Positions 28,747 through 60,978 of a DNA stretch of 64,000 nucleotides are shown in pieces. The notes beneath the pieces were generated by a model. That model made no database searches, was not told the origin of the DNA, and saw only the letters and a program-made list of their open reading frames with translations. Position 1 is the stretch's first letter. Each line of letters opens with the position of its first letter. The translations under genes were made by a program, and so were the position numbers. Source of the stretch: Plicaturopsis crispa FD-325 SS-3. Its lineage: Eukaryota; Basidiomycota; Agaricomycetes; Amylocorticiales; Amylocorticiaceae. The stretch lies in NCBI GenBank assembly GCA_000827205.1, contig KN832556.1:413436-477435 (forward strand), in the 5' to 3' direction.

Positions 28747-31671
28747 TCATGTAAGATCAATGAAGATGTCTGCGTCATCAAGAAATAGAGAGCTATCTTG
28801 CGAGGAGGATGACATTGGATATTCGTGCATACCGGCGCCGCCCCTCGCCGCGTGTAATGAAGGACGAGGGCGGTTAGACGAAGACGAGGCGCGAGGAGGT
28901 GGCGCGTCCTCTACGTCGCTGAATATCTCGATAACGTCTGAGTCGAGACCTATGACCGGCGGTGGCTGAGGGCGAGGAGGCGCGGGTTCCCGGCCAAGAG
29001 AGGATATCGAGGACGACACAACGACAGGGCGTCTCTTCGGCACAGCCTGAGAGCCCCGAAGATTGCTGAGAACGGTCGAGCGGTGCACATTGGCGGTGGC
29101 CGGCGCGGGAGGCTTCTTGCGCGCTGCAGCGGCCACAGGTTTGCGCCCGCCAATGCCCATAATCTGGTCAAACATGATGTCAAACCGATCTGGCGGCGCA
29201 TGATCTGACTCGGCGTCGGCATCGTCGTCCGTCTCATCCAGGTCAACCATGCGAGGTACGTCGGGCGCCGGACCATGAGTAGTTTTCCTCCGTTTGGATG
29301 CATTGGACTTGGCCGTGCCCTTCGCGCGCGCGTTTCTCGAAGGCACATCCGGGGCTGACAGTCGTGGACGCTTGCGAGCGGGGGCCTTCTTCCGGCTGCG
29401 CGACGCGCCTGGCTCCGGGCCCATGATCTGGTCGAATATCCGGTCCATTGCGTCTCGTTGCTGCGGAGGATCGTCTTCGGCATCTGACGCGGCCGGCCGC
29501 TGTGGTCGCTGTGATTGCTGCGACAATCCTGTCGCGCCCATGATCTCATTGTACAGCACATCAATCCTGCCGCCGCGCTCTTGCGTTGGCGCGTCCTCGT
29601 TGTCGGACATGGCGAGCATGCTTGGGTCGTCGGGGTTCGGGAATGTGAACAGGAAGCCGGAAGCGCTGGGTTGCGCGCGGGAGGGGCCCGCGAGCGCGCC
29701 GTCCGGGATGGCGCGAGAGGGGCCCGCAGAGGCCGAAGAGGAGCTCGCAGCATTCGCCGCCCTCTTTCGCGGCTTAGGCGGAGCTCTGACGGGCGAGCTC
29801 TCCATGCCCGATGCGCTCTCCTCATCGCCCGAGGTCGCTTTCGCCTTGCCCTTGCCGCGAGACGCCTTCTGCTTCTTCGCCCCTGCGCCGAACTCGTATT
29901 CCTCTACGAGCCGTGGATGCACCTGGCGCATCATGCTGACGGGGATCCACATGAGCATGGGGCTATTCGGCTCTGGCGGCGGCGTCTTCAGCTCCTTGGT
30001 GGTCCCCGGGTCGACCCTCGTCCCCTTGATGCCCGCTTTCGCCATTGCTACGAGCTGGATCGGCGAGACTTCGACGCGGTACTCCAGCACGCGGTCCGTC
30101 GAGACATGCTGGCGCGTCCCGACAATACGCAGGATGAGCGGGTTGGGATCCGGCGCGGCGGCGGCGGAGGGCTGCGAACCATGGTTGGCAAATGTCGCCC
30201 GGCGCCGCTCGACGTCGGACATATCGAGAAACTTCTTCACAAGGCCCGCCGGAGTCCCTACAGCCTCTGCATTCGACGGGGTGAGGGGGCCGCGAATCGC
30301 CGCGTCCAGAATGCCCGCCGCGATCCGTCGGTCGCGCTCCCTGTCGTCTGCCTCGAGCGCCGCGCGGCGGAGCACGCGCATGACGGCGGGACCCCAAACG
30401 AGCGTGCGGAAGCAGTGCACGAGCGCGCGCGCGTGGCCCCATTCAAACTTTTCCTCCGCGAACGCGGCAATGCGCGCGAGGTGCATCTCGCCGGTGCCGC
30501 GCATCGGCCCGCCGCCGCGCGCGCTGCACACGGGGCTTGCGTAGTTGGTAAGAAGCGTGCGGTCGGGGAAGGTCGCGGGGACAGAGAGCGAGGGGTGTGC
30601 GCGGTGCAGGAAGCCGCGCGAGTTGGTGCGCAGCTCGGTGTTGATCGCGTCGCGCCACTGCGGGAGGAATTGGTCGAGGGGCTGTTGGTCGCGGCGCTGG
30701 AAGGCTTGCAGCAGCTGGTCGCCGAACCCGCAACGCGCCAATGCATGTGCGGTCTCTTTCCCAAATTTTGAAACACCTCCCTGTAAGCATGAATTGAATT
30801 TAGCATGGTATACTTGACGCGTTGAAAATTGGGCGCACAGCATCGTAGTCTCCGCCCGAGAGCAGGGCAAAAAGGATCATCCCTCCTCTGGTGAGGGAAA
30901 CTTCGGGATGGTTTCTCACGTTGTCCGCTGTAAACACCATGACGTGATGCTTGCTTGCTTTGCCGTTGGCGTCCAGCGCTGGGTTGCACTTGTTGCCCGT
31001 GAGCGCCAAACTAGGGCTGTTGTAGGCAGGTGAGCAAAGACACAATTTTCGACAGAAAGCGGCTCTTACTTTCTTATCACTGTGAGCGCGCCAAAGACTA
31101 GCGCGTCGATATCGTCAGTCATGACTGCGTCGATCACGCCGCTCCGGTTCAGATGGGCAAGTTCCGCCTCCGCTTCTCCCAAAGCCTCGTTCGCGCTATC
31201 AACATCTAGAGTGCAGAGCAGGATAGCAGGAGACGCGTAGACTCACCATGCGCCATTCCATTCCGAATATGTCTAAGATGTTCTTCAATTCAGCGGTAAG
31301 ACCGTGCGACCCGGCCTTGCCCATCTTGCTGCCGCGCTTCTGTTTCGGTCGCTCGCGGCCATCGAACACGAACAGCGGGAGCAAGGGGAGCTCCGCGAGT
31401 TTACACGCGCGGAAGAAGAGGAGGCGCAGTTTTGGGTTCTCGCCTTCGTTGGTGCTGAAGTGGGCGTGCTGGTACCATATACTAGCATCTATACCAACGC
31501 GGTACGCGCGTTTTCCAGACTTGTTACTCTCGAACCCATCTACGACACATAGATGGTGGAACGAGCGCGACTGTCCGGCTTTGTTCACGATCTTGTACGC
31601 GAATTCAGGGTTGGGGGGAATGTCACTGCAGAAATGGTATCACTCACATCCCATAGTCCTGGAACACCCAT
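28747..31671 (-). CDS. YEN1: GEN1/Yen1-type Holliday junction resolvase (XPG/Rad2 family)
   Basis: Structure-specific nuclease that cuts four-way junctions symmetrically, nucleus. Exon 1 is MGVPGLWD (31671-31648), then IVNKAGQSRSFHHL. The XPG-N domain carries VGIDASIWYQHAHF and FVFDGRERPKQKRGS; the XPG-I domain carries EAEAELAHLNRSGVIDAVMT and DDIDALVFGA; then LLSGGDYDAGVSKFGKETAH, the helix-hairpin-helix part. Acidic catalytic residues are present. A chromodomain-like part (LEYRVEVSPIQLVAMAKAGI, LMWIPVSMMRQVHPRLVEEY) precedes a long disordered tail with three copies of a D-x2-[FY]-[DN]-[EQ]-I-M-G motif and a SUMO-interaction-like VIEIFSD. Introns cluster in the 5' half; the 3' exon is about 2 kb. 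Long antisense frames here are shadows. Confidence 0.88.
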
Positions 31672-55933: not shown

Positions 55934-56580
55934 GGCCGCGAACGCGAGGCGGAGGGGGGAATTCGCGGAGAAGGGGAGGAATGTCGACAAAAGTCGTGTT
56001 GAAGCTGAAAGGTAAGGGCAGAATTGCACGCCGGCGCCACTAAACTTGATCGACGTCGGCTCTTGAACTCAAACTTCCATGTTCGTTTTGGTTTATCGTC
56101 GGAACACTCTAATGCGGGCCCTGACGATATGTGGGGGATCTCTCTGCCTGAAAGTGTACTCGTCTCTCGATACGCGGCTCGCTCATGTTTCCGTCATCGA
56201 AGGAATCGCTGGGCACATCTTATCGAGCCTGAGGTACTCCGAGTCAACGTCTCAATCTGCGCGCCAATGCAGCGTCCACATCTCGCGACTTGACATAAGT
56301 AGCTGCGTTGTCATGGGCGTACATTGTGCGCGGTGTGTCGTTTAGGTGCGCAGTATTACTCCTCGTCCCGATGGGAGGCCCAGGGCTGATACGAATATAC
56401 ACATAGGGTTTGGCCGTGCTAGAGGCTTATTCGCCGCCGCGCTGTTAGCTTGAGTCCGAACGCCGGGGCATGGGGCCTCCCCACCAGCATCGATAAGCAC
56501 TGTCTCTTCGTCGCCGCGCCCGCGGCACCTCGATAGTTGCGTGCGCGCCATTTCGCAAGCGCTCAAAACGAAACCATCCG
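55934..56580. other. Intergenic, CpG-normal
   Basis: Upstream of the coiled-coil gene. No coding support. CpG dinucleotides are frequent up to the last one at 56579-56580, where composition changes abruptly. Confidence 0.5.
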
Positions 56581-59139
56581 CTCTATCTGAGTTCAATTGG
56601 TGCTGTCTAAATAAACCTGGCCCTCTTCCTTCTGTGCTGAGCTGCTTCCTCATCCTCCTCCTCCTCCTCTGCTGCAAATGCACTGTCTTCATCATAGGAT
56701 TTCTCCTCCTCCTCAGATGTATCCTCCAACCAGTGCTGCTTTCTGCCTTCAAGCTGTTCTTCCTCATCATCATCCTCAAGCTCATCCACCAGCTCATCCA
56801 CCTCATCCTCTGTGGCCAGGACCTCTTCATCTTCATCTGCTACCTCTTCTTTGACTGCTTCTAGTATAAAAGTAAGTATTTCAAAGAGGCAGTAATGCAA
56901 GACAGATGTGCTCACCAGACTCATGAATATTTTGTGGCCTGTTGAAGTTACTCCAGGCTGAAAAGCTGCCTAGCCCTTCTGTAGCCTTGATCAAGCTGAG
57001 AATGGACTCTCTCAGTTCAAAAAGCTTCCGCCGGCCCTGTAAAAAGTCCTGCCTCTGCTCTTGGTGGTGCCTAGCCTCCTGGAGAAAGGACTTGACAACT
57101 CTGGTCCTCATAGCTTTGCCATTGCTGCCATTATGCATCCAGTTGATAGGGCTGTGCTGCATGGCATATAGGGTAAGGAGTAGATGATTGTTGTTGAGGT
57201 TGGTGACTGCAGCTGTGATGTGGTGTGGAGGGGTCTGGAGATGCCTGATATTGAGGTTTTGTTTCTTGAATTTGGGATTCAGGGCCTTTTGTTGGTGGAA
57301 AGCTGCATCAGCCCATTGGTCCAGAAGAGCAAGGAAGGCATTGAAGTCCTCTTCATCCTTCTGCACCAGTTCTGGCCTAGCAGGGAGAGGGAGATATGCA
57401 AGTCTTGTGATTTTCTGCAGATGAGGAAGGAGAGCAGTATGTTTCTTTGCAGCAGCAGAGCAATGATCTAGATGTAAGGAGAAATATACTGTTAGATTAT
57501 TGCTCATACCAACTTGAGGATAATAGGCCAACTCGCCTTGTGCCACAATCCTGTGATATGAAACTCTGCTGACTTTCCATGAGGATGAGCCTTCCATTTG
57601 GCTACCTGGTCAACAGGTGTGGTAGCCCAGTCAAAAATGGCTGTGTCTTGATGCTGAAAGTACTGGAGCAGGTGGTGCATAATCTCTGTCTCAGAGGGTG
57701 TGACTATGTTGTCAGAGGGGTGTTTGCTAGCTCTTCTTTTCTTGTAGTCCAGAAGTCCTGGGACAATCCAAGAAGCTACCTAGAAAGAAATACAATAGGT
57801 TAGACAAAGCCTGCTTGTATAAGGAAATGAAGCTTGCCAATGAGATAGGTTTCTGTACTGTCAACAGCTGGTCCATAAGATGGTCCACAAAGGCAGGACA
57901 GAGTAGTGGCACTCCAGCATCCAAGGCAGGGACATAGAGGGGCCCAGACATAGCTCCAGAAAATAGGATGGCAGAGAGCTTCTCCATCAAGAGTGACAGT
58001 ATAGTGATTTCCTGAGCACAGTAGTATTCAGTGTCCTCCTTGGCTCTCTGTACCTCCTCTTTCAGGCAGTCAAATAGCTGCTGCTGGTACTGCTGAAATG
58101 GTTCCCTCCAGAGGTCACTAGACTGCCCAAAATGCTGCATGTGGCCCTGCAGGTGCCTGTAGTGGATGCTGGAAGCAGACATCACTAGGCCAGCCACTTT
58201 GAGGGAGAAAAGACCTTTGGCTTTGCTAGCTTTGCCCAGTTGCCTGTAAATCTTCTGGGTAAGAACCTCTGGGGAGAGATTCCCCTCAGGTAGAGGCAGG
58301 GCTGAGGCCAGATAGACAATTTGCTGGTATCCTCCTCTCAGGAAAGGCAAAAGCATCTTTGAATGCAAACACATAGTTAGAAACATAATTCTGCAGGATC
58401 TGCAATATACAATGAGCTTACCCCCCAAACCACCTGTTTGCATTCTAATAACTTTCCAGGGGAGAAGCTGTACTGCTGGAAGGCCTGGAGCTTGTATAGT
58501 TTCCTGAAGAGTTTGACCACATCTGTGTGTTTTGCTTGGAGGGTCTTCACATCTGTGGAGGTCAAATGCTGGTCCTTAGCAGAGGAATTGAAGATCCTGT
58601 TCAGCTGCTCTTGAGGTGTGCCAGGGTGCTGTTTATACAGGCAGATGAGTAAGAAAAGTGCTTTGAAATTTAACAACACTCTTGCCTGTTGCTGCCTCTG
58701 TGACTTTCCATTTCCAATGCTAGGGCTTGTGTCAAGCATCTCTGAGGTCTAATAAAATTGATTAATTGTAATGCTTGACTTAGAGGATAAGGGACAGGTT
58801 ACTCACATAGTATAGGAGGACAGAAAGGAGAAGAAGTTCAAAGTAGAGGGAGTAAAGCTGGAAAAATGGGGTTGTGTAAGGCTTTTTATGTCCTTGAGTG
58901 TGGACAATGTCCACAAAGTTGCCTGATATGGAACCATGAAGTCTTCAGTCCACCCTGCACTTGGACACAAATCCACAATGTTGTTATGTGTCCCATTTTG
59001 TGCAGCATTGTCCTTGGGAAATGCAATATATATGAAGGCAAAGCAGGAGAACCTGTACTTGGCAACCACCACTAAATATGCATACCAACAATGAGACCCA
59101 GATAAGTATGCACACCCCAATTCCAGAATAAAGGTCCAC
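56581..59139. other. CpG-depleted island
   Basis: Read base by base, this 2.56 kb holds only three CpG dinucleotides (57029, 57032, 57534) and none at all in the 1.6 kb from 57536 to 59139, whereas flanks have several per 100 bases. TG and CA are abundant. Both edges are sharp: CpG at 56579 on the left, and at 59140 and soon after on the right. No convincing terminal inverted repeats or target duplication found by eye. Confidence 0.9.
56607..58942 (-). CDS. Unassigned multi-exon gene inside the CpG-depleted island (5' end uncertain)
   Basis: Phase-consistent exons on the minus strand. (1) from 58942: GNFVDIVHTQGHKKPYTTPF, FELLLLSVLLYY; 58-base intron. (2) TSEMLDTSPSIGNGKSQRQQ, LICLYKQHPGTPQEQLNRIF, KLLECKQVVWG; 65-base intron with TTCTAAC branch. 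(3) MLLPFLRGGYQQIVYLASAL, KEDTEYYCAQEITILSLLME, ALDAGVPLLCPAFVDHLMDQ; 79-base intron, weak GTACAG donor. (4) VASWIVPGLLDYKKRRASKH, WKAHPHGKSAEFHITGLWHK; 66-base intron. (5) KHTALLPHLQKITRLAYLPL to WSNFNRPQNIHES. (6) Glu/Asp-rich tail ending in basic HRRKRARFI. About 700 residues and no break. I cannot name the family; an accessory gene carried by a mobile element is possible. The acidic tail and basic end suggest a nuclear protein. The 5' end may be missing. Confidence 0.65.
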
Positions 59140-59185
59140 CGGCACACTCAATACAACAGCAGCTAGCCGAGAATATATCCCACCC

Positions 59186-60978
59186 TCAAACAGTTGACCC
59201 CCGCGCAAGCGCACGCAGCCGTTGTCTCAGCCCCTCCTTTCCCCCGTCCTTCCCATCGCTCGCAGCCCCTTCTTTGCTCGTCGACTCTCCTGCGCTCGGA
59301 CTCCCGGTGTCCTCCGTGACGGGTGAGCTCGCCGACGAGTCGTCCGAGCCTTTGATGGAGGGCAGCCCCGTGGGCGACGGATGTGGGCTCTCACGCATCG
59401 TGTTGCGGCGCGAGTCGTGGTTGTCGACGTTTATGTGGATGGCGGAGCTCGTGTCGATGTCGATGTCAATTTCTTCGATGGTTTCTGTGACATAGGCGAT
59501 GCGCGTCCACCGGCGGTAGCGTGTATACTGTAGAGAGAAGCAGTTAGCCATGCGTATTCATTGACGACAAACGCTGACTCGAATAGGGCAAGGGCAAACG
59601 AAGCGGCGGCCAACAGGTCGGCACACGAGCGGCGCGCAGTGCTCGATGCTCAGCGAGAAGAGACGTACCTTTCCGATGCCCCCCTTCGGACCGAGTCCCT
59701 CCCATTTGTTCCCACCATACACCCATCCATCGGCATCCGTCTCAATCTCCTCGTCGCCCTCCTCATCCTCTCCCGCATGGTACACGCCGTCATCCCCATC
59801 GTCGCCCGCGCCCGCGCCATCTGAGCGCGCAGCGTCCGCAGGGCGCGAATGCTCGTCCATCGACGCACGCATCTTCCCAGCCGCACGCATGAGCGCCCCA
59901 CTCGCACTCGCACTCGTGCCCGGCTCGTCCGCGCTCGGCAGCGGCCGCACGACGCGCTCCCCGCCCGCGCCGACGACCTTCCACTCCGGCTCCTCCCACG
60001 CCCACCGCGCCGTGCGCACCTGGCGTTTCCGCCCCCTACTCAATGTGGCCGTAGACGATGGCACGCGGACGGTGCTGGGGCCGGGGAGCGCAAACGCGCT
60101 GGGCGGGCTGACGGCGTGCCCGGCGCGCGAGGACCACGCGGGGCGCTCGCCCGGGAGTAGCGCGGCGGTCCAATCGAGGCCCATCCACCAGCGCTGGTTC
60201 TCGTACAGCGTGAACAGGAAGCGGACCGTCTGGCCTTGAGCGGGCGTGGAGGGCGCGGCGGCTGCGGGGACGGAGAGGATGGAAGGGGGTTGGGCAGGCG
60301 CGTGGGGTGGGGGCAGTGCGAGTAGCACGCTGCCGAGCTTGTAGCACGCCCAGCGGACGTGTGCGGTGCGCCATAGGGTGCGGCGGAGAAACGAGGCCCA
60401 GGACGCGTTCCATGTGAGGAAAATGGTTCCGGTCAGCGCGATGAGGATTCGGAGAGGTACGAGGTGCGTCAGAATGAGATAGGGGAGGTAGAGGAGCGTG
60501 AGTGCGCGGAGAAGCCTCGAGGGTGTAAGCGTGGCTGCGAAGGGTGGCTGCGAGAAGGATGGGAGGACAGAGGATAATGAGTCGAGATGTGCGATGGTGT
60601 TCTCGAGCGTGTGCTCCGTTGCTGGCGGCGGGGGGCCAGTCCTCTTAGGTGCAGAGTACCTTCGTACTGTGAGCACAAATAATATGCTTATTGGAAGGGT
60701 ATACCTGCGCCACAAAGGACGTCAATTGTATTATACGAGGACAAATGATGATGAGGGAGAACGCACCGTAGTACAAATTCACCAAGCATGCAGAAAGCCC
60801 ACCAGGCGGCTAGCGCAAGCCAGCACTCTGCCCACGGTGCGCGCCATGTGAGAATATCTGCTACGTGTCGGGCGGAGGCGACTAAAGGGGCGAGGAGAAG
60901 GAGAGTGCTGATGAGCGGGGTAGGAGTCGTAGAGAGGAGTGAATGCACATCCGAGGCTTGTGCTTGAGCAGTCGACAT
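59186..60978 (-). CDS. Pex24/Pex30-like peroxin with dysferlin domain
   Basis: Integral membrane peroxin of the Pex23/24/30 group, acting at ER-peroxisome contact sites on organelle number and size. Starts MSTAQAQASDVHSLLSTTPT with hydrophobic segments (LISTLLLLAPLVASARHVAD; CWLALAAWWAFCMLGEFVL); later LLRALTLLYLPYLILTHLVP and LRILIALTGTIFLTW give a reticulon-like hairpin. Dysferlin N part: TVRFLFTLYENQRWWMGLDW, LLPGERPAWS. Dysferlin C part: WAWEEPEWKVVG, DADGWVYGGNKWEGLGPKGG, then after an intron YTRYRRWTRIAYVTETIEEI. The Trp-rich pairs are diagnostic. The tail is disordered and Ser-rich, ending LRQRLRALARGSTV. The stop lies 46 bases from the edge of the CpG-depleted island, so only a short native 3' flank remains. 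Otherwise intact. Confidence 0.88.

Follow-up and report, generated by a model that had tools for sequence, protein, structure and literature searches.

Fungal 5mC is placed mainly on transposons in two reviews (PMC7862722, PMC13297926), in which gene-body methylation is described as mostly lost and gene bodies are said to have largely evaded CpG methylation on account of its mutational cost. Marked genes are not without precedent: in the rust Puccinia striiformis gene-body CpG methylation is found on lower-expressed secretome alleles (PMC12129025), and in Coprinopsis 5hmC is found on orphan genes and on multicopy paralogous genes (as cited in PMC8889193). With respect to mutation, genes of Rhizoctonia solani AG8 are reported to undergo CpG-biased hypermutation (PMC4014442), CpG-biased RIP-like mutation is described in basidiomycetes (PMC4352252, PMC4014442), and RIP in Podospora is discussed as a hypermutator or diversifier of NLR repeats (PMC4986451). 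TET/JBP genes that reside on transposons may help these to escape from methylation (PMC12730594).

The locus described here, a CpG desert that covers an open gene of Plicaturopsis crispa, resembles each of these systems in part. With the CpG methylation that falls on transposons and silent genes in the Agaricomycotina (Coprinopsis, Laccaria, Ganoderma) it shares the CpG context and the presence of DNA methylase genes; there, however, the main target is transposons, whereas here the loss lies on open genes and the sampled transposons are spared. With gene-body methylation (plants, animals, P. striiformis) it shares a gene-linked CpG mark, the preservation of the reading frame and, in most of the NLR genes, a CpG-richer 5' part, but here the mark is deduced from CpG loss and concerns a small class of genes, and the 5' flank of the desert gene is depleted as well. 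Like RIP on the NLR repeats of Podospora, a mutational defence process would be hitting NLR genes, yet the context is CpG, the affected sequences extend over entire stretches of genes, not over repeats of high identity, and are stop-free where read, and the nucleotide-binding region of the NLR genes is under strong purifying selection. The CpG to TpG change in agaricomycete protein-coding genes is common to R. solani AG8, where it is genome-wide and polymorphic between nuclei, whereas here it is near-complete and sharply bounded. Searches of the open-licence literature brought up no account of basidiomycetes in which intact NLR genes are depleted of CpG while the transposons are CpG-normal.

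The desert and the gene beneath it

In the window, i.e. the whole 64-kb stretch of DNA that was analysed, the observed/expected ratio (o/e) of CpG is 1.05, and between positions 56581 and 59139 only 3 CpG occur in 2,559 bases (cytosines at 57029, 57032 and 57534, with zero CpG from 57534 to 59140), where 138 are expected from the base composition of the desert itself (46.5% GC) and 209 from the density of the window. The adjoining 1-kb flanks hold 109 and 132 CpG. Outside the desert the widest CpG-free gap in the window measures 118 bases and the minimum o/e among 300-base windows (n=1,217, overlapping) is 0.53, so that the sharply bounded CpG desert claimed in an earlier, sequence-only reading of this DNA is confirmed. 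TpG and CpA are enriched in the desert (mean o/e 1.36).

On the minus strand the desert contains a gene of which the five predicted coding exons join in a single 622-codon frame. The coding introns are of the GT-AG type (65, 79, 65 and 55 nt) and three of the four carry a CTAAC motif. The features are, in the order of transcription:

56581..59139, no strand: CpG desert (3 CpG, o/e 0.022)
58807..59139, minus: 5' flank or probable 5' UTR with the first non-coding exon (0 CpG in 58740-59139)
58749..58806, minus: probable 5' UTR intron, 58 nt, GTGAGT...TTATTAG (GT-AG)
58422..58739, minus: coding exon 1, ATG at 58739
58357..58421, minus: intron, 65 nt, GT-AG, CTAAC near the acceptor
57859..58356, minus: coding exon 2, 166 aa, within an open frame of 282 codons that is longer than any in all 500 shuffles
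57780..57858, minus: intron, 79 nt, GT-AG, CTAAC near the acceptor
57510..57779, minus: coding exon 3, joins in frame
57445..57509, minus: intron, 65 nt, GT-AG, acceptor ambiguous
56916..57444, minus: coding exon 4, in a region with an open frame of 242 codons
56861..56915, minus: intron, 55 nt, GT-AG
56607..56860, minus: coding exon 5, acidic tail ending in RRKRARFI, stop TAG at 56607-56609

Six open exons had been proposed. Five coding exons stand in frame, and a sixth, 5' non-coding exon is likely, predicted from the 58-nt intron upstream of the ATG; the acceptor of the third coding intron is ambiguous (the exon starts at 57444 or 57414), the frame being kept either way. Chance open frames were rejected as an explanation, the two longest frames (282 and 242 codons) exceeding the maxima for the longest and second longest frame in 500 Markov shuffles (228 and 169 codons). 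The acidic tail with its basic end suggests that the product is perhaps nuclear.

The loss of CpG extends beyond the coding sequence, i.e. CpG is absent from the four coding introns and from 400 bases of 5' flank, and the non-coding parts of the desert show an excess of TpG and CpA (o/e 1.34 and 1.44). These observations bear on the possibility that CpG was avoided through selection on codon pairs, RNA or chromatin, without any methylation. Such avoidance would fit the third codon bases that precede a G, which are distributed over A, G and T instead of being T alone, but it accounts poorly for introns and a flank that are equally CpG-free and that show the TpG and CpA excess, and we regard it as very improbable.

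On the 3' side of the gene the desert ends about 27 bases past the stop codon, and at the opposite side it ends about 47 bases short of another stop, which is taken as the end of a neighbouring gene of the Pex24p type (peroxisomal membrane peroxin). This neighbour (59189-60715, minus) lies directly upstream of the desert gene on the same strand; its domain is located in the open frame 59558-60715, and the open frame 59189-59398 would be its last exon.

Relatives, origin and CpG loss of the desert gene

The product of the desert gene has no convincing relative in the sequence searches that were performed. With Pfam, the spliced protein gave nothing over the cut-off (one match, E 0.13, not a transposase), as did the protein in pieces (best E 0.0048, in the acidic tail), and a NACHT or NB-ARC domain was absent. 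No convincing match was obtained for exons 2-4 in PHROGs or for exons 1-4 in NCBIfam, the best hit of the first 544 residues among the PDB sequences had an E-value of 1.7, and exon 2 recovered no relative from viral contigs. When the full protein and exon 2 were each used as query in a protein search, 6,222 and 53 candidates with shared words came up, none of which was kept at E 10; as a control, a piece of a KDZ transposase from the same genome recovered 766 relatives in the same database, which shows that such fungal sequence is represented there. For exons 2 and 4, AlphaFold models built from the single sequence were all helical (pLDDT about 45) and too poor for a fold search.

In the 33.2-Mb genome the gene found only itself, the next match being at chance level (E 0.42). 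The gene is thus single copy by a search that was a loose first look, which very distant copies could escape, and the multicopy family that had been anticipated did not appear. A transposon remnant of a known class was rejected: the gene is single copy and no transposase, reverse transcriptase or helicase domain was found.

The base composition speaks to the origin of the gene. Outside CpG contexts its third bases (A.15, C.375, G.326, T.15) are nearly those of the host (A.154, C.35, G.338, T.158, from four long open frames of the window taken as genes), and its GC content equals that predicted for host DNA from which one G/C per CpG has been subtracted (46.5% observed, 46.8% predicted). A source with CpG-poor DNA, the second of the two origins suggested earlier, is therefore not favoured, and an AT-rich foreign gene was rejected on the host-like third-base usage.

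The same figures count against a horizontal arrival, in which the gene, or an unclassified mobile element, would have been methylated for a long time in another fungus before it was inserted behind the Pex24p-type gene. Its single copy, its sharp edges, the lack of a recognizable relative and an o/e below that of every other locus examined in the genome could all be understood in this way, and so could a nine-base direct repeat that surrounds the desert:

56554..56562, plus: direct repeat CGCAAGCGC, left copy, 9 bases, flanking the desert (possible target-site duplication)
59204..59212, plus: direct repeat CGCAAGCGC, right copy, inside the open frame 59189-59398

This repeat was rejected as proof of an insertion, given that its chance probability is 4.1%, that it was noticed post hoc and that the right copy falls, apparently, within the neighbour's last exon. 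No inverted repeats of at least 8 bases were found between the two desert edges and, as described above, no transposase domain in the product; there are, moreover, further intact genes in this genome that are CpG-poor without any need of transfer (see below). A horizontal arrival is, on this evidence, rather unlikely.

As to age, the excess of TpG and CpA (.0395 per base) makes up for no more than half of the missing CpG (.081), and the third bases before G show no pile-up on T; together these indicate that the loss is old rather than recent. The earlier expectation that such decay should ruin the coding capacity proved too strong. Among the codons only CGA can be converted to a stop by CpG decay, and unselected decay simulated on the four long open frames of the window introduced stops at a rate of about 4.3 per 622 codons and altered 16-23% of the residues. 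Selection on the protein is hinted at by its composition: glutamine and histidine together are doubled (12.7%, compared with 6.5% in the 55 long open frames taken from transposon-type loci) and cysteine and tryptophan are not (2.6% against 3.1%), as expected if CGN-to-CAN changes were tolerated and CGN-to-TGN changes purged.

The simulation also weighs on the notion that the gene is degenerate or decaying and that its frame has stayed open by luck. One could point to the lack of a conserved domain, the ambiguous splice site and the three CpG that are left, but the chance of zero stops under unselected decay is 1.4%, and five coding exons that join in one frame, with open frames beyond those of the 500 shuffles, are hardly what a decaying gene would offer; we consider it the least credible of the accounts discussed here.

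CpG content of transposons and NLR-type genes

The sequence-only reading had expected CpG loss on repeats. In the sample this fails: the core of the match had a CpG o/e of at least 0.75 in 68/68 transposon-type loci examined, which comprised the best matches per list (KDZ 20 of 43, RVT_1 30 of 42, Plavaka 10 of 84, hAT dimer 8 of 13, Helitron 0 of 8). The proposition that the repeats are CpG-depleted was accordingly rejected, and since the sampled repeats have lost no CpG within the coding sequence that was matched, the desert gene is not one of them. Normal CpG in transposons may reflect their youth, or it may reflect the TET/JBP genes that some fungal transposons carry (PMC12730594); at least one old-looking transposon has escaped depletion, namely a Plavaka copy (L072) with 8 in-frame stops spread across the match and an o/e of 0.96. 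When whole transposon loci including their flanks were scanned, the lowest 300-base windows had an o/e of 0.13 (L080), 0.31 (L015) and 0.34 (L020). The low-CpG windows of L015 and L020 adjoin KDZ matches.

The hAT locus L080 extends into a CpG-poor gene with a P-loop like that of NACHT/NB-ARC proteins, the domain being named on its paralogue L084. This gene belongs to a STAND family of which six members were found, none with stops within the match; the sole NB-ARC match in the genome is a NPHP3_N/NACHT gene (L081, G000:C10:725698-728835) with an open frame of 499 codons, which is CpG-poor from about position 500 to the end (o/e 0.15) and CpG-normal upstream. The family members are:

L080/L083, L084, L085, L086 and L088 (contigs C12, C13 and C15): CpG-poor, NACHT-region o/e 0.10-0.26
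L087 (C13b, G000:C13:958700-959700): mosaic, first 720 bases CpG-normal, next 282 CpG-free, perhaps because the domain edge has shifted or through gene conversion

In total, a low CpG content (o/e 0.10-0.26) was seen in 6 of the 7 NLR-type STAND genes that were examined, all six having open frames in the parts read. That other genes might share the low CpG ratio, which had been named as an observation that would speak against the original interpretation, was found for this one class and not for the rest of the 64-kb window. The contrast between CpG-poor NLR-type genes (6/7) and transposon-type loci with CpG-normal cores (68/68) is, in our view, what is new here; its Fisher value is 3.5e-8, which overstates independence because the paralogues are related and which applies to small, non-random samples picked by family. 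Among the loci examined, the footprint is the opposite of the picture given in the reviews: the transposons are unmarked, and NLR-type genes and an orphan gene are stripped of CpG with their frames open.

Purifying selection was measurable in the six-member family. Among its five CpG-poor paralogues dN/dS was 0.10-0.16 in 10/10 pairs, at dS values of 0.14-1.47 that exceed 1 in 7 of the 10 pairs and are there near saturation. The CpG-normal stretch of C13b was used as a reference for the nature of the changes and was compared with all five other paralogues. A third-base C followed by G in C13b is matched by T in the other paralogues in 68/90 comparisons (76%), against 79/265 (30%) for such a C followed by A, C or T, a control that strengthens the NLR part of the argument. 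These 90 third-base CpG correspond to TG in 68 cases and to CA in 1. For a C in the second codon position (n=30) the counterparts are CA 10, TG 1, CG 1, CT 12, CC 5 and AT 1, and for a C in the first position CG is retained in 9/15. Given that deamination strikes both strands equally, the ratios of 68:1 and 1:10 are such as selection against amino-acid change would leave, on the assumption that C13b preserves the older, CpG-rich state; the CpG-to-TpG changes in these paralogues thus appear to have been kept almost only where they were synonymous. Against a reading in terms of hypermutability, 17/30 of the second-base comparisons are NCT or NCC, which are not products of deamination.

A CpG-directed, repeat-induced process resembling RIP, acting on the desert gene while its sequence was duplicated, would link these observations differently. 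The basidiomycete and Podospora reports cited above (PMC4352252, PMC4014442, PMC4986451) make such a process conceivable, as does the fact that the CpG-poor NLR genes come mostly from one six-member family. The desert gene is now single copy and stop-free, though, and the sampled multicopy transposon-type loci are undepleted, including the copy with 8 stops, so that we think this account improbable.

A proposed gene-directed CpG mark

The reading that we prefer, with a confidence slightly above even, is that the desert is the footprint of a long-lasting, gene-wide hypermutability of CpG, probably due to 5mC, on an old single-copy host gene under purifying selection, as in the NLR genes. CpG cytosines across the whole transcription unit would probably have been kept methylated, methylated CpG would have decayed to TpG or CpA, and those decays that damaged the protein would have been removed by purifying selection; the same state, in a less complete form, would apply to the NLR-type STAND genes and not to the sampled transposons. 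In P. crispa the mark therefore appears to be tied to certain genes and not to repeats. We infer 5mC as the cause from the CpG loss, and a host origin of the desert gene and a path in common with the NLR genes are deductions of the same kind. Of the two origins offered by the sequence-only reading, selection on the protein while its DNA was, presumably, methylated is consequently the better one, a milder state being found in 6/7 NLR-type genes, with purifying selection measured among five of them.

Several findings weigh against the preferred reading. Most of the NLR genes read are richer in remaining CpG in their 5' part, whereas the loss in the desert gene includes 400 bases of 5' flank; the third bases of L084 (A.18, C.29, G.27, T.26) are more A+T-rich than those of the desert gene; and the o/e of the desert gene (0.022) lies far below that of the NLR genes. 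The low-CpG windows beside the KDZ matches of L015 and L020, the alternative reasons for normal CpG in transposons, the lack of a relative of the desert gene and its nine-base flanking repeat count in the same direction.

Homology to DNA methylases was detected at three places in the genome (4 matches), and TET/JBP gave 6 matches, 5 of these over the cut-off. The motifs of one methylase locus (L009) we take to resemble those of DNMT5, and the motifs of L010/L011 presumably resemble DNMT1/Masc2. A more far-reaching proposal is that CpG methylation is aimed at chosen intact host genes (the NLR families, which are of the immune-receptor type, and one or more single-copy orphans) instead of at transposons, in heritable gene-wide domains in which the genes are silenced or hypermutable and the proteins are kept by selection; we put this forward as tentative and on balance doubtful. 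If such gene-targeted methylation were true, a system like gene-body methylation would operate in a group that is said to have largely lost it. If methylation as such were true, the locus would offer a direct system in which to study the long-term upkeep of a methylation domain on a functional gene, as well as a route to asking what sets the edges of such domains and whether methylation serves to silence or to diversify NLR repertoires.

A minor observation concerns another part of the window, where a GC-rich block (65%, around 29000-31000) carries an open frame of 707 codons for a low-complexity, charged protein.
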